Shown here: in pieces, positions 1 to 20,693 of the stretch | Layout of the letters: every line of letters begins with the position of its first letter | Numbering within the stretch: the first letter of the stretch is position 1 | Virus record (IMG/VR): IMGVR_UViG_3300032278_000153 | Span: 1 to 20,722 of that record | DNA length: 20,722 nt | Strand: one strand, 5' to 3' | Source: a virus | The notes under the pieces: model-generated | The model's database searches: none | Told to the model about the DNA's origin: nothing | What the model saw: only the letters and a program-made list of their open reading frames with translations | Made by a program: the position numbers and the translations under genes

Positions 1-770
1 TCTATACGTCGGACATCAACCGGGCCATGGGCACCGGCTACCACGCAGGCCTGGCCCTCTACTACATCTGTCGGATGAACGGCGACCTGGCCGACAAAGG
101 CGACTGTGTCTCCGAAGCCCTGTCTGCCCTCCGCAGGGAGATCGCCCTCGCTGACGAGGAAATCTTCTCCTGGACCTACCAACAGGAAACCGCCCGTGAA
201 AAGCGCATAGACCTGAATCTCAGCGAGGCTGAGAACATGCTGTCCGCTCTGATCGTGGCCTACTTCGACCAGGGCCGGGTCTGGCCAAACGAATACGAGG
301 TCAAGATGGTGGAGAAGTCCATCATGCTGCCCCTGTTCACAGACGACGCCCACACAGAGGGCATGTGGGCCCGGAAAGGAACCGTCGACCTGGTCCTCCA
401 AGGCCCGGACGGCTGGCACCGGATCGTTGACCACAAGACGGCGAAGAAGAAGTGGCAGAAGAACAAGGAGAGCCACCGCAACACCCCACAGCCAGGGTTC
501 TACATCGGGGCCCTGCAAGAAGTCCTTCAGGATGACAATGTCACGTTCACTTATGACATTGCGTCGTGGAAGGGAGACTTCCAGCGGATAGATGCGCCAC
601 GCACCGTGGCTCAGGTTGACGCTGTGATGTCAAAGGCCCAGTTGACTGCTGGGTTGCTTGAAGGAAACACCTTCTTGCCAAACACAACATCGTTCCTCTG
701 TACCGAAAGGTTCTGCGACCACTGGTTGAAGTGCCCTTACGGCGAGATTCTGGAACGAACCGACTCCTAA
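1..770 (+). CDS. RecB/Cas4-like PD-(D/E)XK nuclease (5' partial)
   Basis: The reading frame is open at the left edge (in frame from base 3), so the true start lies outside; the first internal ATG is at 27. Numbering from that ATG: a G-x-x-x-x-H-type motif at residues 2-6, the acidic residue of GTVDLV at D121, VDHKTA giving D135-x-K137, and Q155 followed by Y159. This is the motif order of the PDDEXK_1/RecB/Cas4 family, with Asp in place of the usual Glu of ExK. The C-terminus has C225-x4-C230-x5-C236, like the three clustered cysteines that help hold a [4Fe-4S] cluster in Cas4 and AddB; the fourth ligand could be C15, C27 or a residue upstream of the window. The expected role is DNA end processing or recombination during replication. 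It is followed after 13 bases by the next gene. The nuclease fold is well supported; the iron-sulfur cluster is inference. Confidence 0.8.
   Translation, partial: YTSDINRAMGTGYHAGLALYYICRMNGDLADKGDCVSEALSALRREIALADEEIFSWTYQQETAREKRIDLNLSEAENMLSALIVAYFDQGRVWPNEYEVKMVEKSIMLPLFTDDAHTEGMWARKGTVDLVLQGPDGWHRIVDHKTAKKKWQKNKESHRNTPQPGFYIGALQEVLQDDNVTFTYDIASWKGDFQRIDAPRTVAQVDAVMSKAQLTAGLLEGNTFLPNTTSFLCTERFCDHWLKCPYGEILERTDS
616..633. repeat. Dispersed palindrome, copy 1
   Basis: TTGACG-N6-TGTCAA, one arm mismatch, centre CTGTGA, inside the 3' part of the PD-(D/E)XK nuclease gene. The codon phase differs from that of copies 2 and 3 (QVDAVMSK). Confidence 0.75.
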
Positions 771-783
771 GGAGGAGCAGCAC

Positions 784-1365
784 ATGGCTTACAGCCCCCA
801 AGAGAAGGCCGAAATCGTGGCCCAGGTTGCGGCGAAGGTGGCAGGCAACATCTGCTGCGGGAACCCCGACCCGAACGTCTATCTGGCCACCGTGGAGACA
901 GTCCACAACGACCTTGTGGAGAGGATCGCTTCGGCTACTGCTGCGATCACCGTTGCGGCGGCGGAAACGCTCGTAACCCAGGTCTTCCCCGGGACGACGG
1001 TCCACGCCGGTCCTGGGCTGGTAGCCCCGGCACCGACACCGGCACCAGCCCCGGCCCCGTCACCGGGGCCCGCCTATGCACCACAGGTCCAGGCCGGGCC
1101 CATCAACGCCGCCTCCAACGAGGAATCCAAGTGGGCAGACGCTCTGGTCAACAACCCGGACAACTGGCACAACAACATTGGCGACAAGAAGTCTGCGGCT
1201 GGTCCCGACTTCCGCCACAAGACCATCCAGGGCCCACCAGACAACCACGGTAAGACCTGGAACATCGGCCTCTGGATCAAGTCAGACAAGTTCAGCACCC
1301 GGGCCCCCGACTGGGTGTTCTCACACCTGGGCCTGGACATCCCCGCCGGTTACAGCGTTTCCTAG
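784..1365 (+). CDS. Putative ssDNA-binding protein with an OSB-like PDF motif
   Basis: 193 aa, with a strong ribosome binding site (AAGGAGG) before ATG 784. Residues 1-65 look helical, residues 80-105 form a Pro/Ala linker, and residues 115-170 form a conserved-looking module: W117, NPDNWHNN (124-131), DKK (134-136), GPDFRHK (140-146) and LWI (163-165). The arrangement W-x-N...K...PDF-(R/K)-HK...LW resembles the PDF motif of plant organellar ssDNA-binding (OSB) proteins, where this motif rather than the OB fold carries ssDNA affinity. That resemblance is from memory of the family and was not searched. The position immediately before a DnaB-like helicase supports a role in replication, for example coating ssDNA or recruiting the helicase. 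C24 and C25 form an unusual CC pair. It could instead be an unrelated replication accessory protein. Confidence 0.6.
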   Translation: MAYSPQEKAEIVAQVAAKVAGNICCGNPDPNVYLATVETVHNDLVERIASATAAITVAAAETLVTQVFPGTTVHAGPGLVAPAPTPAPAPAPSPGPAYAPQVQAGPINAASNEESKWADALVNNPDNWHNNIGDKKSAAGPDFRHKTIQGPPDNHGKTWNIGLWIKSDKFSTRAPDWVFSHLGLDIPAGYSVS

Positions 1366-1370
1366 CCGCC

Positions 1371-2249
1371 ATGCCTGTACGCCGACTAGAGGAGGTTGGC
1401 GAGGAGTTGAGCCGGTGGGCGACATCCGGTCTGACCCGGATCCCCACCGGCTATCCCCTCTTTGACTCCAGAACAAACGGAGGCATAGCCCCCGGAGAAG
1501 TGTTCCTGTTCCTGGCCCGCACCAGTGTCGGCAAGACCTGGTGGGCTCTCAACATGATTGCCAACCAGGACGAAACCACACCGATGATCTTCTTCTCCTT
1601 GGAGATGCACGCCCGGTACATACTCCAACGCCTGGCCGGGATAGCCAGCAACACCCCGACGATTGACATTGAGCGGTCATTATCGGCAACGGGAGAAGCC
1701 GCCGGGGTGGGCATAGCGGAGAGGCGGTACCCGATGCTGGCCATAGAGGACGAGCCCGGCCTGTCGGTACGAGCCATGAGGGAGGCCCTAGAGGAGTACG
1801 CCGCCACCTTCGGTCAACCAGCCAGGCTCGCTGTCGTTGACTACATGGAACTGGTCCGGTCCCCCGGCATGACCCAGGTGGAGAACGTCGACAAACTGGG
1901 ATGGTCCCTCAAGGACTTCGCACGCAAGGAGGACATCGCCCTGGTGGTCCTACACCAGGTCAAACGGGGGGACAACAACCAGGGCCACCAGCCCCTCACC
2001 ATGACCGACGCCCGATTCGGTGGGGAGATGTCCGCCGACTATGTAGCGGGAGCCTTCCGGCCCTGCCTGAACCCCAACCTGAGCCCGGACATGAGGGTGG
2101 CCATGGACAACGACTTCCGGCTCCAGTTCCTCAAGACCCGCTCCTCAGGCGGGATCTACCCCGACGGTGTCCGGCACCACTTCGACACACAGACAGGGTC
2201 AATCGTCCCCATGCCCTCTGACCTACCCACCGAACAACTGGAGTTCTAA
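1371..2249 (+). CDS. DnaB-like replicative helicase (RecA-type ATPase core only)
   Basis: 292 aa. Residues 30-290 match the C-terminal ATPase domain of DnaB: a Walker A-like ARTSVGKT (49-56; DnaB normally has G-R-x-x-x-G-K-T, so the first Gly is Ala), FFSLEM (74-79), Walker B LAVVDYMEL (153-161), VLHQVKRG (193-200, equivalent to the DnaB sensor/Q-x-x-R segment) and FLKTRSSGG (253-261, the arginine-finger region). The helical N-terminal domain of full-length DnaB (about 450 aa) is absent, leaving only some 30 residues before the core. The gene begins 5 bases after the preceding stop without a clear ribosome binding site, so translational coupling is likely. It presumably unwinds the fork with the TOPRIM primase at 2641. 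A recombinase or KaiC-like ATPase is possible, but FSLEM and the VVDYME motif favour DnaB. Confidence 0.85.
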   Translation: MPVRRLEEVGEELSRWATSGLTRIPTGYPLFDSRTNGGIAPGEVFLFLARTSVGKTWWALNMIANQDETTPMIFFSLEMHARYILQRLAGIASNTPTIDIERSLSATGEAAGVGIAERRYPMLAIEDEPGLSVRAMREALEEYAATFGQPARLAVVDYMELVRSPGMTQVENVDKLGWSLKDFARKEDIALVVLHQVKRGDNNQGHQPLTMTDARFGGEMSADYVAGAFRPCLNPNLSPDMRVAMDNDFRLQFLKTRSSGGIYPDGVRHHFDTQTGSIVPMPSDLPTEQLEF

Positions 2250-2419
2250 TGGGTGTAGCCATGGAGAAGCAAACGGTGTACCTGGGAGCGGGCCTCGTCC
2301 GGTTTGCCTGGCGCATCTACGACGACGACGTAATGGTCGACTACGCCTTCACCAAGGAGGAAGCAGAGAAGAAGGTCAGCAGCCTCCAAGAACAGAAGGA
2401 GCATCGGGATGGGGCTTAG
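2249..2419 (+). CDS. Small protein of unknown function (56 aa)
   Basis: The start ATG shares one base with the helicase stop (TAATG), and a second in-frame ATG lies four codons later. The frame is 56 codons: an N-terminal half with aromatic residues (VYLGAGLVRFAWRIYDDD) and a C-terminal half that is a charged probable helix (TKEEAEKKVSSLQEQKEHRD). The end overlaps the start of the next gene by 11 bases in another frame. Its place between helicase and primase suggests a replication accessory role, but nothing in the sequence identifies it. The overlapping junctions on both sides are the main reason to believe it is translated. Confidence 0.6.
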   Translation: MGVAMEKQTVYLGAGLVRFAWRIYDDDVMVDYAFTKEEAEKKVSSLQEQKEHRDGA

Positions 2420-2651
2420 GGCGAGAAGGGCGTTCCTGTCCTGGCTTCGGCTGGGGATGAAGAACGGGTGGATTGGCCCGCCTGTGTGCGACACCCACGA
2501 CGGGACCCCGACCTCTGAGGAGGAGGACGAATGCGACTTCGACTGCTGCATCCATGTGGTACGCCTATACACCGACCTTGAACACAAGGCAGCGGTGGAA
2601 GCAAACCACTTTATGACACAGGAACGAAAGAAGGAGTTCGGTGGAGACTGA
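2409..2651 (+). CDS. Small acidic conserved-looking protein (80 aa)
   Basis: Starts inside the end of the 56-aa gene and ends 11 bases inside the primase frame. Visible pieces are a basic, hydrophobic N-terminus (MGLRARRAFLSWLRLGMKNG), a PPVCDTHDGTP segment, an acidic run EEEDE, a cysteine pair (DCCIHVVRLY) and a histidine-containing tail (EHKAAVEANHF). The pattern C-x-x-H...EEE...C-x-H...RLY...EHK resembles small hypothetical proteins seen in actinobacterial phages; this is recollection, not a search result. The Cys and His residues could bind a metal. The function is unknown. Confidence 0.65.
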   Translation: MGLRARRAFLSWLRLGMKNGWIGPPVCDTHDGTPTSEEEDECDFDCCIHVVRLYTDLEHKAAVEANHFMTQERKKEFGGD

Positions 2652-3534
2652 ACTGGACGAAATGAAGGAGGTCGCCAGAGAGGTCCGCATGGAGACCGTC
2701 CTGGACCTTCTGTCTCTTGACCCGCCGGACAGTAGCCACAAGATCCGGTCGATCCACAACCCCGACGAGAACGTACCCAGCCTCCACATCTACGAGTACG
2801 ACTTCTACGACTTCTCCACCGGCCAGGGCGGGGATCAGATTGAGTTCGTGAAGTTGGTTCTGAACTGCAACTTCTGGCGTGCTTTGACATTCATCTGTCA
2901 AGCAGAGGGGATGGACGGTAAACGAGATGAGATGGCCCCCAAGGCGCTGCCCGACCTGACCGACAGGTTCAACGACGAACCGGCAGGCTGTGCCACACCC
3001 CGGCATAATGCCCGGCACATGGTGGCGAAGAAGTGGCCCTACCTGACCCTGGACGATGTTGAGTCGTTCGGTATCAAGGTCACCCAGTATTCCCTGTGGA
3101 TCCCGTTCTGGTATGAGGGCAAGATCGTAGGCATAAAGACCAGGGGCACCATGGGAGCAGACAACAAGATGAGCGTCAAAGGGAGCCGCTTTACCACGGC
3201 TTTATACAGTGTCCTGTACCGGCCAGAAGCCACCCACGCTTGGATCTGTGAGGGGGAGTCAGATACCTGGTGCCTGTCTAAGGCCCTCAAGAACGACGAA
3301 CGTCACGCTGTCTACGGTGTACCGGCAGGAGCCGGGGCCATCCAAGCCCGCTGGTTCAACGGTTGGCCTTACGAGACCACGTTCCTCCTGTTGGATGACG
3401 ACCTGGCCGGTCGCAGTGCCGCCGACAAGATCCGAACAGCCCTAGAAGATTACGATGTCCAAGGCATTTTCCTGCCAGGTGGACGGCTCGCAGAGGCATT
3501 GGCCGAAGGCTGGGCACCCCCAGCAGTAGACTGA
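2641..3534 (+). CDS. TOPRIM DNA primase with a degenerate zinc-finger region
   Basis: 297 aa starting at GTG 2641, with AAGGAG four bases upstream. Residues 34-70 follow the layout of the DnaG CHC2 zinc finger (I-H-N-P-D-E-N-V-P-S-L-H then Y-D-F-S-T-G-Q-G-G-D-x-I-x-F-V), but the metal-binding cysteines are replaced; only the equivalent of the histidine (H39) remains. Residues 150-260 form a TOPRIM domain: WICEGESD (201-208, the catalytic Glu) and LLLDDDLAG (249-257, the D-x-D metal site). The protein would make RNA primers for the DnaB-like helicase encoded just upstream. It is shorter than bacterial DnaG (about 580-600 aa) and lacks a helicase-binding C-terminal domain. Apart from a possible role in sensing DNA without zinc, activity is expected to be normal because both TOPRIM motifs are intact. 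One copy of the dispersed palindrome lies inside it at 2884-2901. Confidence 0.82.
   Translation: METELDEMKEVAREVRMETVLDLLSLDPPDSSHKIRSIHNPDENVPSLHIYEYDFYDFSTGQGGDQIEFVKLVLNCNFWRALTFICQAEGMDGKRDEMAPKALPDLTDRFNDEPAGCATPRHNARHMVAKKWPYLTLDDVESFGIKVTQYSLWIPFWYEGKIVGIKTRGTMGADNKMSVKGSRFTTALYSVLYRPEATHAWICEGESDTWCLSKALKNDERHAVYGVPAGAGAIQARWFNGWPYETTFLLLDDDLAGRSAADKIRTALEDYDVQGIFLPGGRLAEALAEGWAPPAVD
2884..2901. repeat. Dispersed palindrome, copy 2 (perfect arms)
   Basis: TTGACA-N6-TGTCAA with centre TTCATC, inside the primase gene; it encodes LTFICQ. Confidence 0.8.
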
Positions 3535-3540
3535 AGTGCG

Positions 3541-3894
3541 ATGTCTAACCCTGCCCGGTCCAAAGGCACCGCCTTTGAGAATGAAGTCCTTGTCGCCCTG
3601 CAAGAGATTTGGCCCGACGCCGACAGAGCCAAGGCAGGCAACAAGTCGGACGACTTCACCGGGGTACCCATCCCCGTGGAGGCCAAGCACCGGAAACAGT
3701 GGGACATACGGGAATGGGTGCGGAAGATACGGGCCGTGGCACCCGACCACCAGTGGGCCATCGTGGCTGCGGACGGGGACAGACGACTGTCGATGTCGCC
3801 GGGCACCGTGGCCATCGTGGACGCAGAGTTCCTGTACGAACTACTGGAGGCCTGGGACATGCTGGGTGTGCCAGAGGAACTGGCCGATGAGTGA
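3541..3894 (+). CDS. Small PD-(D/E)XK nuclease, Holliday-junction-resolvase-like
   Basis: 117 aa. E13 (in AFENEV), D38 (in KSDDFTG) and E47-x-K49 (in PVEAKH) give the E...D...ExK catalytic pattern of small PD-(D/E)XK enzymes such as archaeal Hjc resolvases and VSR/restriction-like phage proteins. An N-terminal S-K-G-T-A-F-E helix precedes E13, as in Hjc-type proteins. It starts 6 bases after the primase stop and its final codons overlap the next gene by 8 bases. Likely roles are resolving recombination or replication branches, or nicking DNA; substrate choice cannot be read from sequence. The second half, containing W-A-I-V-A-A-D-G-D, fits the strands that follow the active site. Confidence 0.72.
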   Translation: MSNPARSKGTAFENEVLVALQEIWPDADRAKAGNKSDDFTGVPIPVEAKHRKQWDIREWVRKIRAVAPDHQWAIVAADGDRRLSMSPGTVAIVDAEFLYELLEAWDMLGVPEELADE

Positions 3895-4441
3895 GCCCTA
3901 CAAGCGCACCCGGGAACAGAAGGTACACGACTTCTCCAACGCCCGGGAGTACGAGGAGTATGTAGCGGAGTCCATTGGGATACCGGTTATCACCCGGTTC
4001 GACGCCACCGATGACCTGGACATCTGGGTACCGGGCTACTACGTCGAAGTCAAAGAGAAGAACCAGAACTACACCCAACGCTGGCACCTGGTCGACGGGG
4101 TCCCCGAACGTAACCTGTTCGTAATAGATGAACTGACTGTTCGGCGGGCCTGCACCAAGTACCCTCATGTGTTCTTCCTGCTCCGGGACAACGTCCACGA
4201 CCATCACCTACCTGAGGACCAGCGGCAGCCCCGCCTGTTCATCGTCCCCATCTGGGAACTGATAGCCGTAGAACGGGTCCGTAGGGACCGGAACGGCAAG
4301 GGCAAGTGGATCCTCAACCTAGACAACTTCACCAGGCTCGCTGACGAAGCCGACATCCCTGCCTTTGCCATACTTGCCCTCGTCAAACAACTCTGGTTGA
4401 CATCAGAGTGTCAAACGAGACTGGAGGTCCCGGAAGTATGA
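3887..4441 (+). CDS. Second small PD-(D/E)XK-like protein
   Basis: 184 aa. The start is set at ATG 3887, which overlaps the previous stop (ATGAGTGA); the frame is open upstream to 3536, but that part is the shadow of the resolvase-like gene. E24, D43/D45 (TDDLDIWVPG) and E54-x-K56 (YYVEVKEK) form a PD-(D/E)XK-type active site, followed by a Q-R-W/H segment (residues 63-66) where such enzymes often place a helix. The remaining part has a hydrophobic strand (VFFLLRD) and LFIVPIWELIAV. It is not obviously a copy of its neighbour: only the catalytic pattern is shared. It may be a nuclease acting on phage or host DNA. A perfect copy of the palindromic repeat lies near its 3' end (4397-4414). Confidence 0.65.
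   Translation: MSEPYKRTREQKVHDFSNAREYEEYVAESIGIPVITRFDATDDLDIWVPGYYVEVKEKNQNYTQRWHLVDGVPERNLFVIDELTVRRACTKYPHVFFLLRDNVHDHHLPEDQRQPRLFIVPIWELIAVERVRRDRNGKGKWILNLDNFTRLADEADIPAFAILALVKQLWLTSECQTRLEVPEV
4397..4414. repeat. Dispersed palindrome, copy 3 (perfect arms)
   Basis: TTGACA-N6-TGTCAA with centre TCAGAG, near the end of the second small nuclease gene, 24 bases before the start of the 46-aa gene. Confidence 0.8.
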
Positions 4442-4578
4442 GCCTCAATACCTTCCTCATGCTCTGCAATGTCTGGATCTTCTGTAGTCTGATCTACCGC
4501 CAGATCCGGCTCCGACGCAGGGAAGCGGAGATAGAGGAAAACCAGTTTTGGATGGCCAAGATGAGAAAGTGGAACTGA
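4438..4578 (+). CDS. Small single-pass membrane protein (46 aa)
   Basis: The start overlaps the previous stop as ATGA. Residues 3-19 (LNTFLMLCNVWIFCSLI) form one membrane segment, followed by a strongly basic stretch (RQIRLRRRE) and a short charged tail ending in KMRKWN. By the positive-inside rule the tail should be cytoplasmic. The function is unknown; membrane-anchored small proteins in phage early regions are often host-takeover or exclusion factors, which is only a possibility here. Support comes from the overlap and the clean membrane/charge pattern. Confidence 0.55.
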   Translation: MSLNTFLMLCNVWIFCSLIYRQIRLRRREAEIEENQFWMAKMRKWN

Positions 4579-4587
4579 GAGGAAACC

Positions 4588-4740
4588 GTGGCACTCACAC
4601 CAACAGGTGAAGACAGGACAATGACCAGGCTGGCGCTTCTGGAGGAGCGGGAGAAGGACGCCGCCCTGCTGAAGGCGAAGTGGAAGGCCGAACGGGAAGC
4701 CATGGGTAACAGGAACCGCCGCCTGCCAAGTCCCGCATGA
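4588..4740 (+). CDS. Small charged coiled-coil-like protein (50 aa)
   Basis: GTG start at 4588 preceded by GAGAGGA at suitable distance; the stop overlaps the next ATG as ATGA. Residues 12-40 (MTRLALLEEREKDAALLKAKWKAEREA) should form one amphipathic helix with heptad-like leucines, then a basic tail (GNRNRRLPSP). No family is recognised. The tight overlap with the kinase gene suggests co-translation. Confidence 0.5.
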   Translation: MALTPTGEDRTMTRLALLEEREKDAALLKAKWKAEREAMGNRNRRLPSPA

Positions 4741-5297
4741 TCGTAGGGTTCGGCCACCGGGCCCAGGTTGGTAAAGACACGGCAGGGGACTGGCTGGTGA
4801 ACCAGGGTTGGGAACGCCTAGCGTTCGCAGACCTGGTCCGGCAAGTCCTTTACACCCTGGACCCGGTGGTCGACCCCGTATCAACCGACTACTACTTCTG
4901 TCTCCAGAACATGGTCGACAAGATGGGTTGGGAAATAACCAAGAGCAACCGGGAGGTCCGGGGCCTGCTCCAGAGGCTGGGTCATGGCTTGCGTGAGGTG
5001 CTAGACCCTGCCGTGTGGTGTAGGCCGGTGATCAGAGATGCCGAACTCCTAGATGAGTCGGGCACCAACGTGGTCATCACCGATGTCCGGTACATGAACG
5101 AGGTGGAAGCCATCTGGAAGGCGGGGGGAAGGGTCTACCGGGTAGACAGGGATGTGCCCATCCTCAATCACTCCGGCGAGGAACAGTTGGATGAGTTCCA
5201 GGGCTGGGACGGGGTCATTGACAACAACGGGTCAATCAACGACCTATACGGTCAGGTCAAGGCTCTGGTCATGGGATACACGCTAGATGTAGATTGA
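4737..5297 (+). CDS. Deoxynucleoside monophosphate kinase (T4 gp1-like)
   Basis: 186 aa. The N-terminus MIVGFGHRAQVGKDTAGDWL contains a P-loop (G6 to T15, with GKDT as in phage dNMP kinases). L-A-F-A-D follows at residues 28-32, R-x-L-L-Q-x-L-G-x-G-L-R at about 80-91, a Walker-B-like VVITDVRYMNEVEAI at about 112-126, and VYRVDR later. This order matches the dNMP kinase family of T4 and many actinophages, which phosphorylates dNMPs to dNDPs using ATP to feed DNA synthesis. The length is ordinary for the family. It begins with an ATGA overlap and lacks its own clear ribosome binding site. Confidence 0.82.
   Translation: MIVGFGHRAQVGKDTAGDWLVNQGWERLAFADLVRQVLYTLDPVVDPVSTDYYFCLQNMVDKMGWEITKSNREVRGLLQRLGHGLREVLDPAVWCRPVIRDAELLDESGTNVVITDVRYMNEVEAIWKAGGRVYRVDRDVPILNHSGEEQLDEFQGWDGVIDNNGSINDLYGQVKALVMGYTLDVD
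5218..5235. repeat. Dispersed palindrome, copy 4
   Basis: TTGACA-N6-GGTCAA, one mismatch, centre ACAACG, inside the dNMP kinase gene (VIDNNGSI). Confidence 0.6.
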
Positions 5298-5301
5298 CCC
5301 C

Positions 5302-5484
5302 ATGAGCAGGGTCACCAAACTTCTCGTAGCGGTCACCGGGCTCCTCGTTGCTGTTGGCACGCTAGTAGGCACCATTAGCATGACCATCGGTAAGGGGCCG
5401 GACACCTCAGGAGGGATTACGATTGTCTTGAACAGCCCAGAGGCTTACGAGACCTTCCTCGCTGAACACCCAGCAAACGGCTGA
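5302..5484 (+). CDS. Small N-terminally membrane-anchored protein (60 aa)
   Basis: Residues 5-29 (TKLLVAVTGLLVAVGTLVGTISMTI) make one hydrophobic segment after a short basic start (MSRVTK), which could be a membrane anchor or an uncleaved signal. The rest (GKGPDTSGG...PEAYETFLAEHPANG) is short and polar, likely outside the membrane. It starts 4 bases after the kinase stop. The function is unknown; similar short anchored proteins accompany phage lysis and superinfection-exclusion genes, but the context here is metabolic. Confidence 0.5.
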   Translation: MSRVTKLLVAVTGLLVAVGTLVGTISMTIGKGPDTSGGITIVLNSPEAYETFLAEHPANG

Positions 5485-5494
5485 CGGAGACACC

Positions 5495-5773
5495 ATGGGG
5501 CTAGTAGCCGGTAGCGACACCTGGGCTGTTTGGACGACCCAGACAGGCACCGAAGGACACCCGACCTCGTTCCACTACGCCCCCACCGAAATGGGGTTCA
5601 TCCATGAGGTCCACCCGACAGGGGAATGCCTCTGCGGGCCCCAACGGATAGATGTCTGGCATGAGACACCCGATGGAGAGATGTTCATACCCCATTACCG
5701 GCACCAGGCCTTAGACGGGGTCTATTACGACGACATGGAAGTCGACCAGTTCCCCGATGAAAGTTTGGATTGA
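5495..5773 (+). CDS. Protein of unknown function (92 aa)
   Basis: ATG 5495 has GGAG at about 6-7 bases. The sequence is rich in aromatic and acidic residues and histidine: WAVWTTQTGTEGHPTSFHYAPTEMGF, then HPTGECLCGPQRIDVWHE, with a C-x-C pair (ECLC) and several histidines (H35, H38, H54) that could bind metal. The tail YYDDMEVDQFPDESLD is strongly acidic. Its last 17 bases overlap the ferredoxin start, so the two are probably translated together; a partnership with the ferredoxin is possible but unproven. Confidence 0.6.
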   Translation: MGLVAGSDTWAVWTTQTGTEGHPTSFHYAPTEMGFIHEVHPTGECLCGPQRIDVWHETPDGEMFIPHYRHQALDGVYYDDMEVDQFPDESLD

Positions 5774-5987
5774 CCAAGACTTATGCACAGGCGACGGACT
5801 ATGCGCCGAAATCGCTCCCAGCGTCTTTGTGATGGCAGAAGACGGCCTTGCCTATGTGGCAGAGGGTGGGGTCATGCTGCCGGGCCAGGGGCCATCGACC
5901 CTAGCCCAGGTACCTGACGATCAGGCAGAAGCAGTTATCGAATCTGCCGAAGACTGCCCCGGCGAGTGCATCTTCATTGAGTTGTAA
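5757..5987 (+). CDS. Small ferredoxin, C-x2-D-x2-C type
   Basis: 76 aa. MKVWIDQDLC(10)TGDGLC(16)AEIAPSVFVM followed by EDGLAYV and a C-terminal EDC(67)PGEC(71)IFIEL is the layout of single-cluster bacterial ferredoxins of the [3Fe-4S]/[4Fe-4S] type. The second cysteine of the usual C-x2-C-x2-C is Asp13, as in Pyrococcus furiosus ferredoxin, where Asp can ligate a [4Fe-4S] cluster or be absent from a [3Fe-4S] one. C71 is an extra cysteine. Ferredoxins of this size donate electrons to cytochromes P450, reductases and similar enzymes; such genes are known in actinobacterial phages. No redox partner is visible in the window. It is the last gene of the + block, and its 3' end overlaps the opposite gene by 14 bases. 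Confidence 0.85.
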   Translation: MKVWIDQDLCTGDGLCAEIAPSVFVMAEDGLAYVAEGGVMLPGQGPSTLAQVPDDQAEAVIESAEDCPGECIFIEL

Positions 5988-6231
5988 GCGACGGGTCGTA
6001 GTCCAACGCACCCGGCTTGGCAAACACCGCTGGGTCGCCGGTCTCCTTGAACTTCTCCATTTTTGGGTTGAGGCTCGCACCGCCTATAAAACTATTTACA
6101 GAGATGGAAGCCAAGGCCGCTCTAGTTCTCGCCGGGTCAAATGACTTTCCGCACTCCGGGCACCAGATGGTAGGGCGAGACTCAGGGTCTGGCTTGAACT
6201 CGCATTTGGGGCAAACATCTTCGTTTGACAT
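5974..6231 (-). CDS. Zinc-ribbon protein (85 aa)
   Basis: C7-P-K-C10 and C24-P-E-C27 form a two-knuckle zinc ribbon in the first 30 residues; the remainder (ALASISVNSFIGGASLNPKMEKFKETG) has no recognisable domain and ends in a polar tail. It is the last gene of the - block, 3 bases after the holin-like gene, and converges on the ferredoxin with a 14-base overlap. Zinc ribbons this small often mediate protein-protein or nucleic-acid contacts. Its role at the end of a lysis/virion operon is unknown. Confidence 0.7.
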   Translation of the reverse strand: MSNEDVCPKCEFKPDPESRPTIWCPECGKSFDPARTRAALASISVNSFIGGASLNPKMEKFKETGDPAVFAKPGALDYDPSLTTQ

Positions 6232-6234
6232 CGG

Positions 6235-6441
6235 CTAGTCAGTCAGGGACGAGGTTCCCTTGGTGCCGATCCGCTGGGCTACAACGCCCTTCAGGACGGC
6301 CAACGCAGCAGCGAACCCGGCTCCTGCCATCAGTTTCCACTGGTCGACCCCCAGGTCGAACACTGAGTTGGAGGTCATGGCCCCCAGGGCAGCCTGCAAA
6401 AATGTGGCCGCCAGTCTCTCTACAAGATCCTTAGTAAACAT
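6235..6441 (-). CDS. Putative holin (r1t-like)
   Basis: 68 aa. The N-terminus MFTKDLVERLAATFLQAALGAM followed by a second hydrophobic segment WKLMAGAGFAAALAVLKGVVAQRI fits the layout of small r1t-type holins, which start with F-x-x-D-x-x-E-R and have two membrane helices. Such holins oligomerise in the inner membrane and release endolysin at lysis. A purine-rich AAGGGG lies about 10 bases before the ATG, spaced by a run of A. Neighbours are the membrane-anchored coiled-coil protein upstream and the zinc ribbon downstream. No endolysin gene adjoins it. The family call is from residue pattern only. Confidence 0.62.
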   Translation of the reverse strand: MFTKDLVERLAATFLQAALGAMTSNSVFDLGVDQWKLMAGAGFAAALAVLKGVVAQRIGTKGTSSLTD

Positions 6442-6982: not shown

Positions 6983-8931
6983 CAGTCCGCTTTCCTCAGA
7001 ACAACCGTAGCCAATAGGCGATGTCGCTTGAGCGCCTGGGATCTATCGTAAACCCCCAGGGCTCTCGTCTGGACCTGTAACACTTCATAAACCTCAGCAG
7101 CCTTAGTAATCGGCCAGTCAATGTCCTGATAGTTTACTCGCCTCTGTGTCAATGCTGCCAGGGTCCTGGCCCGCAGGGTTCCAGCCCCCGGTGCGTTCTC
7201 AGGCAGGGGGTGACCATTCAGCCCCCGTACGCTGTCCCCGCAATCTACAACGATTGACACCACTGTGTCACGCAGACCGATGGCATGGTATTTGACCTGC
7301 ACAAAGTTCAGAGTCGTCGTGGCCGTGCCGCTCCCCACAAACACAACCTTGTATTGGAGAGACCGGGACGACGACGACAGCCTCGTACTCTGAGAGGTGC
7401 CACCAACCGTGTCCAACGAGGACAAGGCCGTGTAGGTGGTCCCCTCGTCAATCGAAACGTGCGGAGTGACGGAACAACCGGTCGCAATAGGAGGGGTCAA
7501 CACAACGATCTCGTCCCAGCCCTTAGCCAGGGCGCTCCCACCGTCGATGCGGGACCCGATCAGGGTCCCAGCGGTCAGGAACGCAGTGGTCGACTCCTTC
7601 TTGATGCCATCCCCCACAACCGAATAGACGACCCTCCCGTCCCACACATCCGCCCCGTAGACATCCCCGGCGACCGCCTCGTCCGACTCAAAGAACTTCG
7701 CATACCCGCCGGTCTCCAGGTCGTAACACCCCAGGCCTGTCTTGTTCCCGGAAGTCATCTTCTTCCACCCCCAGAACACCTGGTTGTCTCTGGCGGTGAA
7801 CTCGCCCACAGCATGGTCGTCGGCGGTGGCCTTGTCAGCCAGTTCAGTAATAAAGAACGGGGTCAGAGCCCCGGTCTGCGGGTCCGGTACACCCCTGTAG
7901 ATGTATGCGGTGCCGGTGCTGCCGGTGCTTTGCCGGTAGGCCCGCACAAAGATGGAGCCCCCAGCGGCGAACACTTCCCGGGGGGACAGACCAGGTGGCA
8001 TGTCCCAGGCCACAAACGGGTACTGGGTGTTGCCGCTGCTGTCCAGGCCCAGGGGCCAGGCGTAGACCATGCCCCGGTTGCCCTTGTAGGCGCAGAAGTA
8101 AACATGCCCGTTGGCTTCAGCGAAACTCCCCACAGTCCAACCTTGACCTAACGTCAGGTGGCCCCCGGAGCGTTCCTCTGTCCCCACATCGCTTCCCCCT
8201 CCGATGGAGAAAGAGGTGAACCGGTTGGGGGTGGAAGAACTGTTGGCGATCACCCCGGCGCAGATCCGGCCCGCTGCGTAGGCGACGGTGTGGGCCACCG
8301 CAGCATTCCACTGGGTGGTGATAGCAGAGGTTGTCCCCCGCAGAATCCCCTCCGCCCCACACGCCGCATACCAGTATTGACCGTCGGATGTCAAATCTTG
8401 GATGTTGCCTGGGTTACCACCGTGGGCCAACGTGAAGGCGCTGCCCGCCGATGGCGACGCCGCATTCGTGTACGGGGTCAGGGTAGCCACAGCGGTCTGG
8501 ACATACAGGGTGACCCCAACCACCACCAGTCGGGGTGTGGCGTAAGTGTTAGCGGCCATCTCCGGGGTCGACGCCAGCAACTTGATGGAGCCCGGCTCAG
8601 AGAACGGATCCAGGCCCTCGCTAGACAGGAACATCGTAGAGTCGCTGTCCTGACGGTTCAGGAACGTCTGGCCCTGGCCCCCCACCCAGGAGTCCCCCGA
8701 CCCGAACGAATACCGCTCCACCGCCTGGTCGAACGGGGTGTCCCCCGTAGCCAACCGGTCAGGGATCAGAGGAATAGTGGTCTTCTCGTACCCCTCCCCC
8801 TCAGCGGACTCCGCCAGGATGTACCCCGTGCCGTCAATGGCTATGTCATACACCGTCCCAACAGTGGACAGCGCAGTGATGCTGGCCGGTTCCGTGAAGT
8901 CCGTTTCCAGGACAATCTCATCGGCAGCCAT
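6982..8931 (-). CDS. Large virion protein, beta-propeller-like (minor tail protein)
   Basis: 649 aa, rich in Gly, Ser and Thr. From about residue 20 to 440 it shows repeated strand-turn units each ending in an aromatic/Gly pattern (QYWYAACGAEGILRG, HVYFCAYKGNRGMVYAWPL, SIFVRAYRQSTGSTGTAYIYRG, QVFWGWKKMTSGNKTGLGCYDL, RVVYSVVGDG), which suggests a beta-propeller. Residues about 450-550 look like a beta-sandwich, and the C-terminus (VYEVLQVQTRALGVYDRSQALKRHRLLATVVL) is helical. Proteins with this plan occur as minor tail or baseplate proteins in actinophages. Its position between fibre-like and lysis genes fits. The start overlaps the upstream stop as TAATG. Two palindromic sites (7254-7271 and 8377-8394) lie inside. 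Confidence 0.6.
   Translation of the reverse strand: MAADEIVLETDFTEPASITALSTVGTVYDIAIDGTGYILAESAEGEGYEKTTIPLIPDRLATGDTPFDQAVERYSFGSGDSWVGGQGQTFLNRQDSDSTMFLSSEGLDPFSEPGSIKLLASTPEMAANTYATPRLVVVGVTLYVQTAVATLTPYTNAASPSAGSAFTLAHGGNPGNIQDLTSDGQYWYAACGAEGILRGTTSAITTQWNAAVAHTVAYAAGRICAGVIANSSSTPNRFTSFSIGGGSDVGTEERSGGHLTLGQGWTVGSFAEANGHVYFCAYKGNRGMVYAWPLGLDSSGNTQYPFVAWDMPPGLSPREVFAAGGSIFVRAYRQSTGSTGTAYIYRGVPDPQTGALTPFFITELADKATADDHAVGEFTARDNQVFWGWKKMTSGNKTGLGCYDLETGGYAKFFESDEAVAGDVYGADVWDGRVVYSVVGDGIKKESTTAFLTAGTLIGSRIDGGSALAKGWDEIVVLTPPIATGCSVTPHVSIDEGTTYTALSSLDTVGGTSQSTRLSSSSRSLQYKVVFVGSGTATTTLNFVQVKYHAIGLRDTVVSIVVDCGDSVRGLNGHPLPENAPGAGTLRARTLAALTQRRVNYQDIDWPITKAAEVYEVLQVQTRALGVYDRSQALKRHRLLATVVLRKAD
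7254..7271. repeat. Dispersed palindrome, copy 5
   Basis: TTGACA-N6-TGTCAC, one mismatch, centre CCACTG, inside the beta-propeller-like virion gene. Confidence 0.7.
8377..8394. repeat. Dispersed palindrome, copy 6
   Basis: TTGACC-N6-TGTCAA, one mismatch, centre GTCGGA, inside the beta-propeller-like virion gene, 1123 bases from copy 5. Confidence 0.7.
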
Positions 8932-9994: not shown

Positions 9995-10002
9995 GGTTCA
10001 CC

Positions 10003-15255: not shown

Positions 15256-15266
15256 GTCTCAGCCTC

Positions 15267-16205
15267 CTATGCTTCCGTGAGGCCGGTATGCCTCACAATG
15301 GATAGAGGGTTGTAAATGGCCAGGCCGGGGTAAACCTCAACCCGACCCAAGTGCCCAGGCGCTGCCTCAGTCTCACCAAAGTCATTTACGTCGAACGACC
15401 CGCCCAGGCCCAACAGGCCTGTCACGTTCTCGTCCTCGCCAAAGGCGATGTAGTAAATGCTTGAAGTGACGCTGCTTGATCCCTGTGTCTCATCGAACGC
15501 AAGGATCGCAGAACCTGTTGCATCATCTCCGATGATCCGAACGGGAATCCCGTTCCATTGCAGAATCTGGCGGCCAAACCGGTCATCCCCTACATCAAGC
15601 AGGGAGAAGTAACCAGATGTGTTGCGACCAAGGGTCGTCAACTTGCGCCGGATAAAGCGGTTCATCAGGATGACATCAGCACTGGACTGGCTACGCAAAA
15701 GATCGTGCGCCTCGTCCATCTTCGCCAATGTGAGGGGTCCGCCATTCGTTGCCTCAGCAATCGTCTGGCCCAAACCCTCAGTGATAAGGGAGTTGATTCC
15801 CTTGAAATCCTTGGCGGTGCCGGTGCCGTCGAAGAAATACTTGTCGTAAGTCCTGGACATGGCCTTTGCGAACTTGGCGTACTGCCTGGCTTTCGCAGAG
15901 ACTACGTTCCCACGGACTCTGACAAGGTAGTTATCGACAAATACCTCGCCACCAAGGATAGCCGTACCAAAGTACCGCTCCGTGTCTGTGCCGAATGACC
16001 TGGTGTAGGCCTCGTTCACATCACGGAAAGCGGGCGTTGGCAGACTGTTTTCGACCTGCACCTTGAGAGCGTTCCCAGCGATGGCGGTCTGCGGAAGCAT
16101 CTCAAGAATCGGAGATTCCTGGATCAGGGTCTCAACGACCCCACGCTTCAACTGATCGTCACCGTACTTGGCCGCCTCAAGGAGGGTCACGCTGCCGCTT
16201 GGCAT
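15267..16205 (-). CDS. Major capsid protein (HK97-fold)
   Basis: 312 aa, preceded by AGGAAGG at good distance from ATG 16205. The N-terminal arm (LLEAAKYGDDQLKRGVVETLIQESPILEMLPQTAIAGNALKVQVENSLPTPAFRDVNEAY) is the typical start of small HK97-type capsid proteins. It is followed by helices (NVVSAKARQYAKFAKAMSRTYDKYFFDG), LAKMDEAHDLLRSQSSADVILMNRFIRRKLTTL, a beta region with WNGIPVRIIGDD, and YIAFGEDENVTGLLGLGG near the end. Length and order fit the T=7 shell subunits of many phages. It follows a scaffold-like gene and precedes the decoration-like gene, as in most capsid operons. A link to any particular capsid subfamily cannot be made by eye. Confidence 0.85.
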   Translation of the reverse strand: MPSGSVTLLEAAKYGDDQLKRGVVETLIQESPILEMLPQTAIAGNALKVQVENSLPTPAFRDVNEAYTRSFGTDTERYFGTAILGGEVFVDNYLVRVRGNVVSAKARQYAKFAKAMSRTYDKYFFDGTGTAKDFKGINSLITEGLGQTIAEATNGGPLTLAKMDEAHDLLRSQSSADVILMNRFIRRKLTTLGRNTSGYFSLLDVGDDRFGRQILQWNGIPVRIIGDDATGSAILAFDETQGSSSVTSSIYYIAFGEDENVTGLLGLGGSFDVNDFGETEAAPGHLGRVEVYPGLAIYNPLSIVRHTGLTEA

Positions 16206-16787: not shown

Positions 16788-16796
16788 GATTGGTAT

Positions 16797-16826
16797 ATCT
16801 AAGTATAACTGACACGGCGCTGTCAA
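16797..16826 (-). promoter_or_regulatory. Candidate promoter for scaffold and capsid genes
   Basis: On the - strand, TTGACA (16826-16821) is followed after 18 bases by TTAGAT (16802-16797) inside an AT-rich stretch (TATACTTAGATATACC) that stands out from the GC-rich surroundings. The other possible -10, TATACT, is only 13 bases away, which is too short for a sigma-70-type promoter. The -35 is part of palindrome copy 9, so a bound regulator could block it. Confidence 0.38.
16809..16826. repeat. Dispersed palindrome, copy 9
   Basis: CTGACA-N6-TGTCAA, one mismatch, centre CGGCGC. It covers the stop codon of the 625-aa gene and, read on the - strand, begins with TTGACA, so it may overlap a promoter for the scaffold gene. 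Confidence 0.75.
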
Positions 16827-18700
16827 TAGCGGACGCCGGTCGCTCCTCGTCCTGGTTGCGCCAGACGGGCCCCACGGGAAGTAGTAGCAAACCCCCCGGG
16901 GGTACGGGCCCGTGCCAACTCGCCTTGACGGGCCCGTGTCAAAAGATCAGTTTCAGGGGCTTGGCTCAAGAACACTGCGTTCTCAAACTCCTCCTGGCCG
17001 AACGTGGCAGCGCCCTCCCCTTGGACGTTCGTCCTGCGAATCATGGATTCGATCATCGAACCCTGGTTCACGAAAGACCCGTAGCCCTTCAAGGCCTTAG
17101 CCCGGTCGATACCGGCCTGCCTGAACTCCCCCACACGCTCCATAGACGGGACCACCAGCCCCTGCTCCGCTGCGGCACCGCCGACAAGAGCAAACTGGAA
17201 CGCTTCTATCAGTTCGTCCAACTCCAACAATGAGTCACCGTCCGGGTCCCCCAAATACAAGGCCTCCACCAGGCCCTGGGCCTGCTCCGTGGAAAGAGCG
17301 TTGATCCTAGCCAGCGCACCCTCCGGCAAAGCCCCCTGCGCTTGCAGGGTGTTCAGGGTCTCAGCAGTGGCCTCCAAGGCGGCGTCCGTGGCGTTAGCCA
17401 CCCAGGTGGAGTAGTCAAACTCTGCGTCCAACAGGTTCTGGTTGTATTGCCCAATCAGCGTCCTTGACGCTTCCGGGTCAACCACGGCCTGGTACAGGTC
17501 GTCTATGGAAACGTCCATGTTGGCGTAAGTCTTGAACGTCGCCCTCACATGGGCGGAGTTGTTTACCAGATCCCTGTAAGTATCCAGCCTGCTTTGGAGT
17601 TCGGTTGTTGAGATGCCTCGCTCCATGAGCGTTGCATAATCCACCGGGTTCTCCGTGGCGCTGTTGAAGATTTCCTTGCCGCCGATAGAGCCAGCGTCAA
17701 TCAGCACATTGCGATACTCCCTGACCTGGTCGACATACGACTGTTCATCGGTGAACCTCATACGTCCCTGCTCGTCGGTGATGCCAGGGAATGTGGCCAG
17801 GTACTGCGGGGTGTCCCGGACCTGTGCGATCAGAACGTCCGTGTCTATGCCCTCCGTGACGGCCTCTGTGATCATTGCGCCCAGGTTCAGGTCCTTAGCC
17901 CACGGGAAATGCTTCAGCGCCCATTCCTGAGCGGTACCGGTTTCAGCGAAGAAGTCAACTGCGGTTGAGTCCTCCTGAAGGATGACCTCCAACTCGTCGT
18001 CCACCAGCGTCTGCTCGTTCCCGCCAGTCACCGCCGGTATGAAGGGCACTCCGTTCGGGTACTGGTCAGGGTCCAACCCCATGTCCCTCATAGCCTGATT
18101 CTGGACACCCTTCACCGAACCGACTTCCATGCCGTCGGCCCCGCCGACGACCTTTCTTTCCCAGTTCTCTATCCGCTGCCCGTGCCTCACAAATGGGCTG
18201 CCTGTCGTAGGATCTTTCCCCATAGCGCCCGGTTCGTCGCTCCAAACCTCGTAGTTCGTCATACCCGTCGTCTGATCCATGAACGCACCAGACGCCTTTT
18301 CGCCCCACCAAGAGTGGGTAGGATCAGCCGCAGCAGCAGGCGGGATCTCAGACCCGTAGTTCCGATACGGGGAAGTACCCCCCGAAAGTCCCTGCACTGG
18401 TTCGCCCGGCGTCAAATACCCCAGGTCCATGCCCCGTTGGGAGGCCCCGCCGTGCATGCCGACGACACCGGTCCAGTCCTCCACCCAGCCACCAGTGGCC
18501 GGGTCCCGGAACCCCGGAACGCCACCAGGGCCGGAGCCGCTGTTAGCGCCCCGGTACTCCGCCGAATACTCAAAGATCGCCCCAGTGGCATTACTGGTGT
18601 TGATCGGATTCAGAGTGCTGTTCGGATCAGGATGGATCTGCCCCGCATAGATCGCAGCGAACGTCACCGTCTTCCCGTCCTCATTCACCCACTCAGCCAT
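16823..18700 (-). CDS. Large internal virion protein (probable ejection protein)
   Basis: 625 aa. GAGGAGG precedes ATG 18700, which overlaps the upstream stop as TAATG. The first about 200 residues are Gly-, Asn- and Pro-rich (GANSGSGPGGVPGFRDPATGGWVEDWTGVVG; NYGSEIPPAAAADPTHSWWG). The middle and end are helical, with repeated ALE/LAR-type segments (AALEATAETLNTLQAQG, LARINALSTEQAQGLVEALYLGDPDGDSLLELDELIEAFQFALVGG) and an EF-hand-like DPDGDSLLELDE stretch. The C-terminus has a small tandem repeat (LTRARQGE then LARARTPG). A low-complexity start with a long helical body, next to a lysozyme-bearing gene and upstream of the scaffold, fits an ejected core protein. It shows no terminase or portal motif. 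Confidence 0.5.
   Translation of the reverse strand: MAEWVNEDGKTVTFAAIYAGQIHPDPNSTLNPINTSNATGAIFEYSAEYRGANSGSGPGGVPGFRDPATGGWVEDWTGVVGMHGGASQRGMDLGYLTPGEPVQGLSGGTSPYRNYGSEIPPAAAADPTHSWWGEKASGAFMDQTTGMTNYEVWSDEPGAMGKDPTTGSPFVRHGQRIENWERKVVGGADGMEVGSVKGVQNQAMRDMGLDPDQYPNGVPFIPAVTGGNEQTLVDDELEVILQEDSTAVDFFAETGTAQEWALKHFPWAKDLNLGAMITEAVTEGIDTDVLIAQVRDTPQYLATFPGITDEQGRMRFTDEQSYVDQVREYRNVLIDAGSIGGKEIFNSATENPVDYATLMERGISTTELQSRLDTYRDLVNNSAHVRATFKTYANMDVSIDDLYQAVVDPEASRTLIGQYNQNLLDAEFDYSTWVANATDAALEATAETLNTLQAQGALPEGALARINALSTEQAQGLVEALYLGDPDGDSLLELDELIEAFQFALVGGAAAEQGLVVPSMERVGEFRQAGIDRAKALKGYGSFVNQGSMIESMIRRTNVQGEGAATFGQEEFENAVFLSQAPETDLLTRARQGELARARTPGGFATTSRGARLAQPGRGATGVRY
16925..16942. repeat. 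Dispersed palindrome, copy 10
   Basis: TTGACG-N6-TGTCAA, one mismatch, centre GGCCCG, in the 3' end of the 625-aa gene, where the - strand encodes LTRARQ. A degenerate second version (GGTACG-N6-TGCCAA) lies 24 bases away at 16901-16918 as part of an in-frame tandem repeat. Confidence 0.65.
17464..17481. repeat. Dispersed palindrome, weak copy
   Basis: TTGACG-N6-GGTCAA, two mismatches, centre CTTCCG, inside the 625-aa gene. A match this weak can arise by chance. Confidence 0.35.
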
Positions 18701-20598
18701 TAGACAATCCTCCTCACACCGCCGCCGAACCCGAAAGTGGACTCCATAGTCTTCAGAGTATCGGCGGTGAGTTCCTTGGCCCGCCTAGACGACTGCCACT
18801 CCGGCTTCCCACGAAGCCTCGTCCTGTATTCGACCGGGGTTTCCCCCGAAGTCAAAGCCAACATCAGATCCTCGTTACCCAACGGGTGAGCCGCATTTAT
18901 CGGGGATTCCATCTCACTGTTGTGGATATTCACCCAAGGGGCGGCGTACTCCGTGGTACTCAGCAGGTCCGGTTTCCCAGGAAACTTCGATGAGGCCGTA
19001 GCCCGAATGTCGTCCATCACTTCCACCATGGAAATCTCATTCGACATCAGTTGCGTAGCCAAGTCCTGCACATCCCAAGAATAGTTCTCAGGGTCTAGCC
19101 CCCACTTGGAATAGGCCTCCTGCAACTGCTGGACCTTCGCATCACGCTCCACCTCGTACTGGCCAGCGGCCACCTGGGTGTCGTGAACGTGGATCTTCCA
19201 GGCGTTATTGACCTCGCCTGGCAGGTCCGCCGCATACTGCTTGATGGCGTCACCGACATCCCAATGGGAGGCCTCCCCCATAGCAATCGCTGTCGCCCAC
19301 TCCAACAGGGTCTTCCCGCCGACAACCAGGGTGTCGGCAGGGCGCTCAAACGTGCTGGTGTAATACTGGAACTGCTTGTAAAGGCCGCTCTGGGAATCTT
19401 CCAGGACCCGCTGTTCCATGGCCCGTCGTTCGGCCCGGGTAGCAGCGTCCCAGTTCGCAACCAGGTTTGTTCTTGACTGCCCCCAGTCAGTTGCCTGGAT
19501 CTGCAACTTGACGTATTCCATCGCCTCCAACAGCGTCGGGTTGGCGATGACCTGGGCGATGATCTGCTGGACACCAGTGTCGTCAAGGGCGGTGGTACCG
19601 GCCAGGAACGCTTCGGTCACCAGTTGGTGGATGACCTCGTTGATCGGCAACGCATCTTCGTCGGGTGTGAGGAAGAAGCCCTGGTCGTTGAACCTGATCT
19701 TGTTGACCGGGATGACCTCCCCGGTTTGTATCCAGTTCGGGTTGCCTGAAACGGCCTGATCCCAAGTGGTCCGGTCCATTGAAATGGGGTCAACGCCCGT
19801 AGGCACCCCTTCAAGACGCCAGACGACTGCGACATTTTCCCCGACAGCAATCGGGTCATCAGTGAGGAGCGGGAGAGCGTAATAGAAAGTGGAGTGTTGC
19901 CCTGTCCAGGGCGCTCCTGGTGCCGACGACAACTCCCTTACTTCGTAGAACTGTCCTTCGGACGTTCCAAGGTTTTCGATTTGTCGACCCACCTCGTCGG
20001 CGGCTGGTTCTTCTGAGGTTGCTATACCCAACGTATTCAGATGCTGGGTGACAGCGGTCAGCACACCCCCCTCACCGTGGTCGGTGAATCTTGTCGGGTC
20101 GGCCAGTTCGCTGTAACCGTCCTCGCCCCGCCAACCCTCAAACACGGTTGCGATGGCAGGGTCGGCAGCGATGCTGGCCAAGTCGGATCCACCCTGGCTG
20201 ACCAGGTGCTGCAACATGGGTAGGGCGAAACCGTCCCTGAGGGTCCTTACGGTTGCGTCCACCCCCTGCTCCCAGTCCCTGTAGGACATCACCGGAGGAA
20301 CATTGCTACCGTATGTTGTCATGCCAGCCGCCAGACTGTCTTCCATCCGTTTGGCCGTGATCTCAGCCGGGGAGAGGTCTTGCCCCTGGTAATCCCTGGT
20401 TTCCCCTGCCATTTTTGTGGTGTTGAGCGGGTTGAACCTGGGCCCATCCACCCGGCTCACAGGGCCCTCCATCATCATCCAAGTGACCAGGATCATCAAG
20501 TTGCCCTCAGTCACCGGAGCGTTCAGACCCTCCAGGACAGCGACAGCAAACTTGGTCATCTCATCAGACGACAACCCGTTGATCTGGGGTTCTGGCAT
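18700..20598 (-). CDS. Internal virion protein with lysozyme/transglycosylase-like N-terminus
   Basis: 632 aa when started at ATG 20598, which overlaps the stop of a 31-aa ORF (TAATG); a TTG at 20640 in the same frame would add 14 residues and also has an AGGGG, but the coupled ATG fits the local pattern better. Residues about 18-125 (LMILVTWMMMEGP...FNPLNTT...YRDWEQGVDATVRTLRDGFALPMLQHL) follow the order E-G...N-P-L-N-T...Y...W/G-x-x-A-T-x-x-T-L used by a family of phage and bacterial peptidoglycan-degrading domains; the E of MMMEG is the candidate catalytic residue. The remaining 500 residues are helical and Gln/Glu-rich. Virion-associated hydrolases open the wall during DNA entry. Activity has to be considered unproven. 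Confidence 0.6.
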   Translation of the reverse strand: MPEPQINGLSSDEMTKFAVAVLEGLNAPVTEGNLMILVTWMMMEGPVSRVDGPRFNPLNTTKMAGETRDYQGQDLSPAEITAKRMEDSLAAGMTTYGSNVPPVMSYRDWEQGVDATVRTLRDGFALPMLQHLVSQGGSDLASIAADPAIATVFEGWRGEDGYSELADPTRFTDHGEGGVLTAVTQHLNTLGIATSEEPAADEVGRQIENLGTSEGQFYEVRELSSAPGAPWTGQHSTFYYALPLLTDDPIAVGENVAVVWRLEGVPTGVDPISMDRTTWDQAVSGNPNWIQTGEVIPVNKIRFNDQGFFLTPDEDALPINEVIHQLVTEAFLAGTTALDDTGVQQIIAQVIANPTLLEAMEYVKLQIQATDWGQSRTNLVANWDAATRAERRAMEQRVLEDSQSGLYKQFQYYTSTFERPADTLVVGGKTLLEWATAIAMGEASHWDVGDAIKQYAADLPGEVNNAWKIHVHDTQVAAGQYEVERDAKVQQLQEAYSKWGLDPENYSWDVQDLATQLMSNEISMVEVMDDIRATASSKFPGKPDLLSTTEYAAPWVNIHNSEMESPINAAHPLGNEDLMLALTSGETPVEYRTRLRGKPEWQSSRRAKELTADTLKTMESTFGFGGGVRRIV

Positions 20599-20693
20599 TA
20601 CTGAAACGCCTTTCGCCAAGCGGCCATGCGACGGTACCAAGCACCACCCCTGGCCGATTCATCCGACAAAGCAACTTGACGGGTCCGTGTCAT
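20598..20693 (-). CDS. 31-aa basic ORF coupled to the internal virion protein
   Basis: ATG 20693 has AGGAG three bases upstream (AGGAGATATG), and the frame MTRTRQVALSDESARGGAWYRRMAAWRKAFQ runs 31 codons to a TAA that overlaps the next ATG as TAATG. The product is basic with a possible amphipathic C-terminal helix (YRRMAAWRKAF). Both the ribosome binding site and the coupled junction match the rest of the operon, so it is likely translated, if only as a leader for the next gene. One copy of the palindromic repeat covers its first six codons. Confidence 0.5.
   Translation of the reverse strand: MTRTRQVALSDESARGGAWYRRMAAWRKAFQ
20676..20693. repeat. Dispersed palindrome, copy at the 31-aa ORF start
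   Basis: TTGACG-N6-TGTCAT, two mismatches from the consensus, centre GGTCCG, overlapping the start codon of the 31-aa ORF. On the - strand it differs from copy 10 at only two of 18 bases. Confidence 0.5.

Follow-up and report, generated by a model that had tools for sequence, protein, structure and literature searches.

A dispersed dyad conserved as DNA in a clade of uncultivated tailed phages, and its candidate binding protein

Results

A palindrome repeated along a tailed-phage fragment

The DNA analyzed here (the window) is the 20,722-base IMG/VR virus record IMGVR_UViG_3300032278_000153, a fragment of an uncultivated marine phage along which copies of an 18-bp palindrome, TTGACA-N6-TGTCAA, are dispersed. 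Its genes are of the tailed-phage type: a plus-strand block (1–5990) encodes a PD-(D/E)XK exonuclease (3–770, plus strand), a DnaB-like helicase, a primase-like protein, a RusA-like resolvase and a deoxynucleotide kinase, and is followed by late genes on the minus strand, among them the major capsid protein gene (15267–16205, minus strand). A set of 50,697 phage records contains no DNA-level match of the window to a cultured phage, and the identity of its capsid protein to those of cultured phages (Paenibacillus, Streptomyces and Gordonia phages) does not exceed 37%. With the capsid protein as query, 34 relatives were found in IMG/VR, three of which are about 47 kb long: G005 and G009, both with a G+C content (GC) of 60%, and G011, with a GC of 43% and a 99-base terminal repeat. 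A further contig, L093, is 97.8% identical to window positions 1–5716. A capsid scan of genome contigs for the host gave no match, and a pattern scan for the site hit unrelated bacteria with 22 single matches, roughly as many as chance predicts.

The window holds two perfect copies of the palindrome, eight with one mismatch and four with two. The coordinates and mismatch classes of all 14 had been listed correctly in a first-pass annotation, as had the absence of any copy between 11231 and 16808, and one further copy, which has only the core TGAC-N8-GTCA, lies at 19473–19490. Markov shuffles of order 1 to 3 yield 0–0.07 copies with at most one mismatch, against 10 observed, and 0.5–0.9 two-mismatch copies, against four observed. 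The excess also stands against a shuffle that keeps each protein and its codons, a check proposed in that annotation, for which the count of copies within one mismatch is 0.59 and never exceeds 2 in 100 shuffles. A motif-blind dyad search, covering all 4+4 and 5+5 words with spacers of 0–20, has TGAC-N8-GTCA as its leading word in G005 and G011 as well as in the window; the top words in the window are this core (n = 15, shuffle maximum 6) and TTGAC-N8-GTCAA (n = 8, shuffle maximum 2). In G012, G013 and G021, relatives that lack the sites, the same search brings up no other clearly prominent dyad. Six is the only productive spacer: at this spacing the window has 10 copies, G005 25, G009 28 and G011 23, while other spacers give 0–2. 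TGAC is essentially invariant, with nearly all variation falling on the outer T (about 80%) and the inner A (64–84%), and there are 28–36 cores per 47-kb relative and 15 in the window.

Inside genes of the plus-strand block lie one-mismatch sites in the exonuclease gene (616–633) and the deoxynucleotide monophosphate kinase gene (5218–5235), a two-mismatch site in the helicase gene (1663–1680), and a perfect site in the primase-like gene (2884–2901), all 18 bases of which are the same in G011. The other perfect site (4397–4414) stands close to the end of a gene, with the next start 23 bp further on and arms identical in G011, and a two-mismatch site (6225–6242) overlaps the start of a leftward gene close to the convergent junction. 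Further right, a 649-amino-acid late gene contains two one-mismatch sites, at 7254–7271 (position kept in G005, G006, G009 and G011) and at 8377–8394 (position kept in relatives, including G011). Two more one-mismatch sites are found at 10869–10886, near the start of a 306-amino-acid gene and again kept in position in relatives including G011, and at 11213–11230, in a 274-amino-acid gene, where the site is lost in G009 and G011, whose protein has diverged. Another (16809–16826, one mismatch) lies 70 bp ahead of the gene preceding that for the capsid protein; a 625-amino-acid gene carries both 16925–16942 (one mismatch, common to G009 and G011) and 17464–17481 (two mismatches), and the last two-mismatch site (20676–20693) is close to the right end of the window. 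Genic copies do differ in codon phase, as had been noted earlier, but they are not free in it: they occupy phases 0 and 1 only, since in phase 2 the TGA of the arm would become a stop codon.

Selection acts on the arms as DNA

G011 on one side and G005, G009 and the window on the other are syntenic sister lineages that differ by 17% in G+C (43% versus 60%) and have capsid proteins about 84% identical. We aligned orthologous genes of the window and G011 (59% and 43% GC) and compared third bases wherever both codons specify one amino acid. They agree at 29 of 30 positions in the arms and at 3 of 15 in the centre, against a background of 38%. The arms, and the arms only, are held fixed across lineages 17% apart in G+C, and they show none of the background-like drift that the first-pass annotation had asked about. 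Seven window sites (2884, 4397, 5218, 7254, 8377, 10869 and 16925) stand at the same codons in G011, and two (616 and 11213) are lost. The earlier proposal that these are sites of the kind bound by a dimeric protein, kept as DNA and not for the encoded protein, is borne out by their symmetry, the fixed N6 and the conserved third bases of the arms.

For a test of pairing, 111 distinct copies were oriented by gene sense and variants of the outer and inner pairs were scored. G:U pairs in the sense RNA account for 26 variants, G:U pairs in the antisense strand only for 31, positions unpaired on both strands for 46 and compensated pairs for 3, which is the reverse of what is expected for a selected hairpin. 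Departures from the consensus show no sense-strand bias, and the site is its own reverse complement. A –10 hexamer 15–19 bp after TTGACA, counted at a minimum of 5/6 matches, is not clearly enriched in the window, G005, G009 or G011: G009 has 1 against 0.14 expected and G011 has 3 against 1.2, with no enrichment in the window or G005. Sigma-70 promoters were rejected on the missing –10 box at the right spacing, and RNA hairpins at genic sites on the uncompensated stem changes; from these two results it follows that the copies are very probably protein-bound DNA sites, whose symmetry and fixed spacing suggest a dimeric binder or one with several helix-turn-helix (HTH) units. A methylation or restriction target was also considered, and the enrichment, instead of avoidance, of a long bipartite site speaks against it; a methyltransferase was seen in G011, the other genomes not having been searched for one systematically.

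Sites are densest in early and middle genes

Copies occur along the whole genome, both between and within genes, and most of those in the window are in coding sequence. Site density in the early/middle region exceeds that in the late region 2.8–3.6-fold in the three 47-kb relatives (G005, p = 0.0005; G009, p = 0.0004; G011, p = 0.007), and most copies in the early region are 15–32 bp upstream of a start codon. A regular spacing of 1 kb was rejected, as the coefficient of variation shows the sites to be no more regular than random; G005 and G011 have a modest shortage of very close site pairs.

Scans of G005, G009 and G011, which bear the palindrome, found neither a tyrosine integrase nor a resolvase, and ParA and ParB were likewise not found in these full-length genomes. 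No immunity-repressor family was matched, in a scan that did not cover every gene. The relative G012 has a tyrosine integrase and no sites. A link to lysogeny was rejected on these grounds. ParB/parS partition sites were rejected as well, and the partition protein suggested by the first-pass annotation is disfavoured because ParAB was not found.

A triple-HTH protein is the candidate binder

In the relatives, the gene for a conserved 204-amino-acid protein with three HTH units directly adjoins the left side of the exonuclease gene, which places it beyond the window edge; in L093 it is found at 10001–10597, just past the position of the window's left end, and in L039 at 10953–11567 (minus strand). 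The protein matches Pfam HTH_23 in three stretches and also contains sigma-70 region-4-like HTHs, and an AlphaFold model shows tandem HTHs (pLDDT 79.6). It has weak PHROG similarity to a D5-like family. All 17 of the 17 loci that encode this protein at a minimum of 47% identity have 8–14 cores per 10 kb, while phages with a homologue of only 25–28% identity have one copy (G021) or none (G012). TTGACA is the –35 box recognized by the fold of sigma region 4, so a TTGAC half-site would be plausible for such a protein. The triple-HTH protein is thus the leading candidate to bind the sites.

RNA elements accompany the sites in early leaders

In the early leaders of G005, G009, G011 and other relatives, the palindrome lies directly 3' of a 40–44-base element that resembles a miniature tRNA. 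In order, it has a 5-bp stem, a linker of mostly 10–11 bases and a 6-bp stem capped by a T-loop of seven bases (UUCGAUU and UGCAAGC among others); the closing strand comes next, then ACGA. All six T-stem pairs are present in 57 of 70 element copies that were chosen without a pairing requirement. Among 33 distinct rows, 99.5% of cells are paired, and double changes number 81 against 16.9 in shuffles. Linker position 4 covaries with T-loop position 2 (G-U 24, A-G 21), and the single row that fits neither class has a one-base shift; linker position 5 is always G and T-loop position 3 always C. The two pairs correspond to the tRNA-elbow contacts G18–U55 and G19–C56.

Searched with a covariance model, the clade, L093 included, shows several copies in each early region; there are none in G012, in G013 or in the window, which lacks the early region. 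No Rfam 15 family matches the elements. They precede most early genes at L039:13705–16937 (minus strand), L042:2849–6483 (plus), L045:1091–4309 (minus) and L093:4378–7567 (plus). Several genomes also encode a tmRNA-like RNA of about 80 bases that consists of the tRNA-like domain alone, with no message part (53.6–58.2 bits, gathering threshold 47), at L039:12883–12963 (minus), L042:7372–7448 (plus), L086:8830–8911 (minus), L074:12636–12716 (plus) and L093:8609–8689 (plus). The third acceptor pair of this mini-tmRNA is G-U; a G-U at that pair is an alanine identity position. Some early leaders carry unrelated hairpins where the palindrome otherwise sits (TCCTGGCC-ACCA-GGCCAGG and TTCAGC-AAATA-GCTGAA), and this exchange points to a possible second, RNA-level role for the palindrome there.

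The sister phage G021/L086 is syntenic with this clade and has one palindrome only. Its early leaders contain six type II hammerhead ribozymes at gathering level and further, weaker ones (L086:9995–13416, minus strand), where the palindrome clade has mini-tRNA elements. In this phage, hammerheads adjoin two mini-tRNA elements and the mini-tmRNA, each with a CGAGGAG ribosome-binding site after it. In G005, G009, G003, L066, L071, L074 and L093, the early gene that comes first has in its leader a hammerhead-like core (G005 18045, minus; G009 2635, plus; L074 about 7732, plus) whose stem III includes the Shine-Dalgarno strand; Rfam support for this first-gene core is weak in L086 (22 bits) and absent in G005. 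The simplest reading is that the leader elements are RNA cut points before early genes, which would split the message into single-gene pieces. Cutting would be self-cleavage in the hammerhead lineage and the work of RNase P/Z in the mini-tRNA lineage. Tandem hammerheads that cut polycistronic RNAs are known in bacteria and prophages (PMC3088659).

Discussion

We propose that each genome carries about 30 dispersed operators for a phage-encoded DNA-binding protein. A dimer or a multi-HTH protein would recognize, on the DNA itself, two TTGAC(A) half-sites about one helical turn apart. The sites are densest in the early/middle operon, with one between the leader RNA element and the ribosome-binding site of nearly every early gene. 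The likeliest role would be to turn down or pace early/middle transcription by blocking RNA polymerase at many places, and such a roadblock would work in both directions because the sites are symmetric. The sites themselves, their geometry, selection on them as DNA, their conservation and distribution, and their co-occurrence with the triple-HTH protein are observed. That this protein both binds the sites and acts on transcription we regard as an even chance. Several points weigh against this proposal: the window's own early/late density ratio is just 1.23; many genic copies are far from gene starts, which suits a genome-organizing protein equally well; a structure search with the triple-HTH model returned no specific homologue (nothing below E = 0.05); and the co-occurrence of sites and protein is confined to one clade, so that shared descent alone could give the pattern. 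It is also possible, if rather less than an even prospect, that the early operon runs under a composite leader module before almost every gene, in which an RNA cut element is followed by the dyad operator at the new 5' end. The cut element might be a mini-tRNA with elbow, a mini-tmRNA or a hammerhead, interchangeable among relatives, and the operator would be bound by the triple-HTH phage protein, coupling transcription block and RNA punctuation gene by gene. The clade would then be lytic and would also have spread the same operator over the rest of its genome.

Among other explanations, the sites might belong to a protein that organizes or protects DNA, by compaction, segregation or shielding of replicating DNA, with gene regulation secondary. 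Copies deep inside genes throughout the genome, symmetric sites that require no orientation, and the PHROG similarity of the candidate binder would all fit, D5 of phage T5 being a regulator that binds double-stranded DNA. The marked preference for the early/middle operon and for leaders right before start codons, the missing ParA and ParB, and the random-like spacing argue against such a protein, and we consider it unlikely. Adoption of a host regulator's operator genome-wide, for control by host state or for titration, is distinctly unlikely: the sites go with a phage gene in lineages of both 43% and 60% GC, dozens of sites in late genes would be unusual for a host regulon, and the related phages G012 and G021 are essentially without them. 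What speaks for it is that the phage-encoded binder is so far a candidate.

That the palindromes act as RNA hairpins with a 6-bp stem and a 6-nucleotide loop, for example as 5'-end stabilizers or protein-binding hairpins, gains from the fact that they fold in predictions and from the leaders with an unrelated hairpin in the same place, where a hairpin seems useful. We nevertheless judge it very improbable, as genic copies are uncompensated and do not favour changes that leave the pair intact in sense RNA, and a hairpin function would not fix the sequence of the arms. Chance, codon usage or protein constraint, which the coding location of most window copies might suggest, is refuted by the excess over Markov and codon-preserving shuffles, the dyad search and the third-base identity of the arms.

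Several known systems invite comparison. Cluster A stoperators (L5 gp71, TipsytheTRex) are 13-bp, asymmetric sites of temperate phages, oriented with transcription and bound by a monomer (PMC9283540). More than 20 dispersed sites, many near gene starts, are a feature shared with those phages, in which a phage HTH protein is the binder and, as a repressor, halts elongation of transcription at the sites. The half-site of the present dyad, TGTCAA, also occurs in the L5 stoperator, which offers a lead only. The sites described here are symmetric, mostly genic and not oriented with transcription, and integrase, resolvase, ParA and ParB were not found; the stoperator-like character proposed at first therefore fails in the strict sense, and the label serves only as an analogy. 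With no lysogeny genes found, the usual stoperator reading falls away and the case is most like the dyads of Cluster O (Corndog) mycobacteriophages. The repeat there, TGTTCGG-N3-CCGAACA, is a 17-bp perfect dyad with no assigned function, present in more than 30 copies that are denser at one end, about a third of them genic, and without meaningful orientation (PMC4351075). Both repeats are dyads with invariant arms and a variable centre, in about 30 or more copies genome-wide (28–36 here), intergenic and genic, denser in one genome region and in phages with no integrase or parAB found. They differ in their arms (TTGACA/TGTCAA versus 7-bp arms) and spacer (N6 versus N3), with no kinship detected at the DNA level, so that the resemblance is one of kind and not of repeat family. 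Dispersed operators of this kind have already been seen in Cluster O phages, and here they are real, conserved and functional DNA sites, to which the present case adds a test by evolution, a candidate for the binder and a connection with the RNA elements of early leaders.

Cluster K phages have Start-Associated Sequences (SAS), asymmetric 13-mers that overlap the Shine-Dalgarno region, and ESAS, imperfect 17-mer repeats (PMC3203893). The leader copies here are similar in lying just ahead of the starts of small genes for non-structural proteins, where an inverted repeat stands before the start region; SAS and ESAS, unlike the present sites, do not occur throughout late genes. The early mRNA of T7 is polycistronic and is processed by RNase III. 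The early message here would resemble that of T7 in being polycistronic and probably cleaved between its genes where RNA structures lie, whereas these structures are mini-tRNA-like RNAs or hammerhead ribozymes and the cutting is inferred. Dispersed dyads in phages without lysogeny genes, such as those of Cluster O, are so far unexplained; with one conserved protein as candidate binder, the question becomes open to test. Rarer still is a covarying mini-tRNA element with elbow covariation that is apparently exchangeable with hammerhead ribozymes, through which ribozyme or tRNA punctuation of phage mRNA would become directly testable.

Two further observations concern gene content. A short protein encoded in the window at 5757–5987 (plus strand) is ferredoxin-like by its cysteine pattern (CTGDGLC ... 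CPGECI). In G005, positions 23551–35683 (plus strand) encode two giant late proteins of 1909 and 2055 amino acids, almost without family matches, in a phage of 47 kb.

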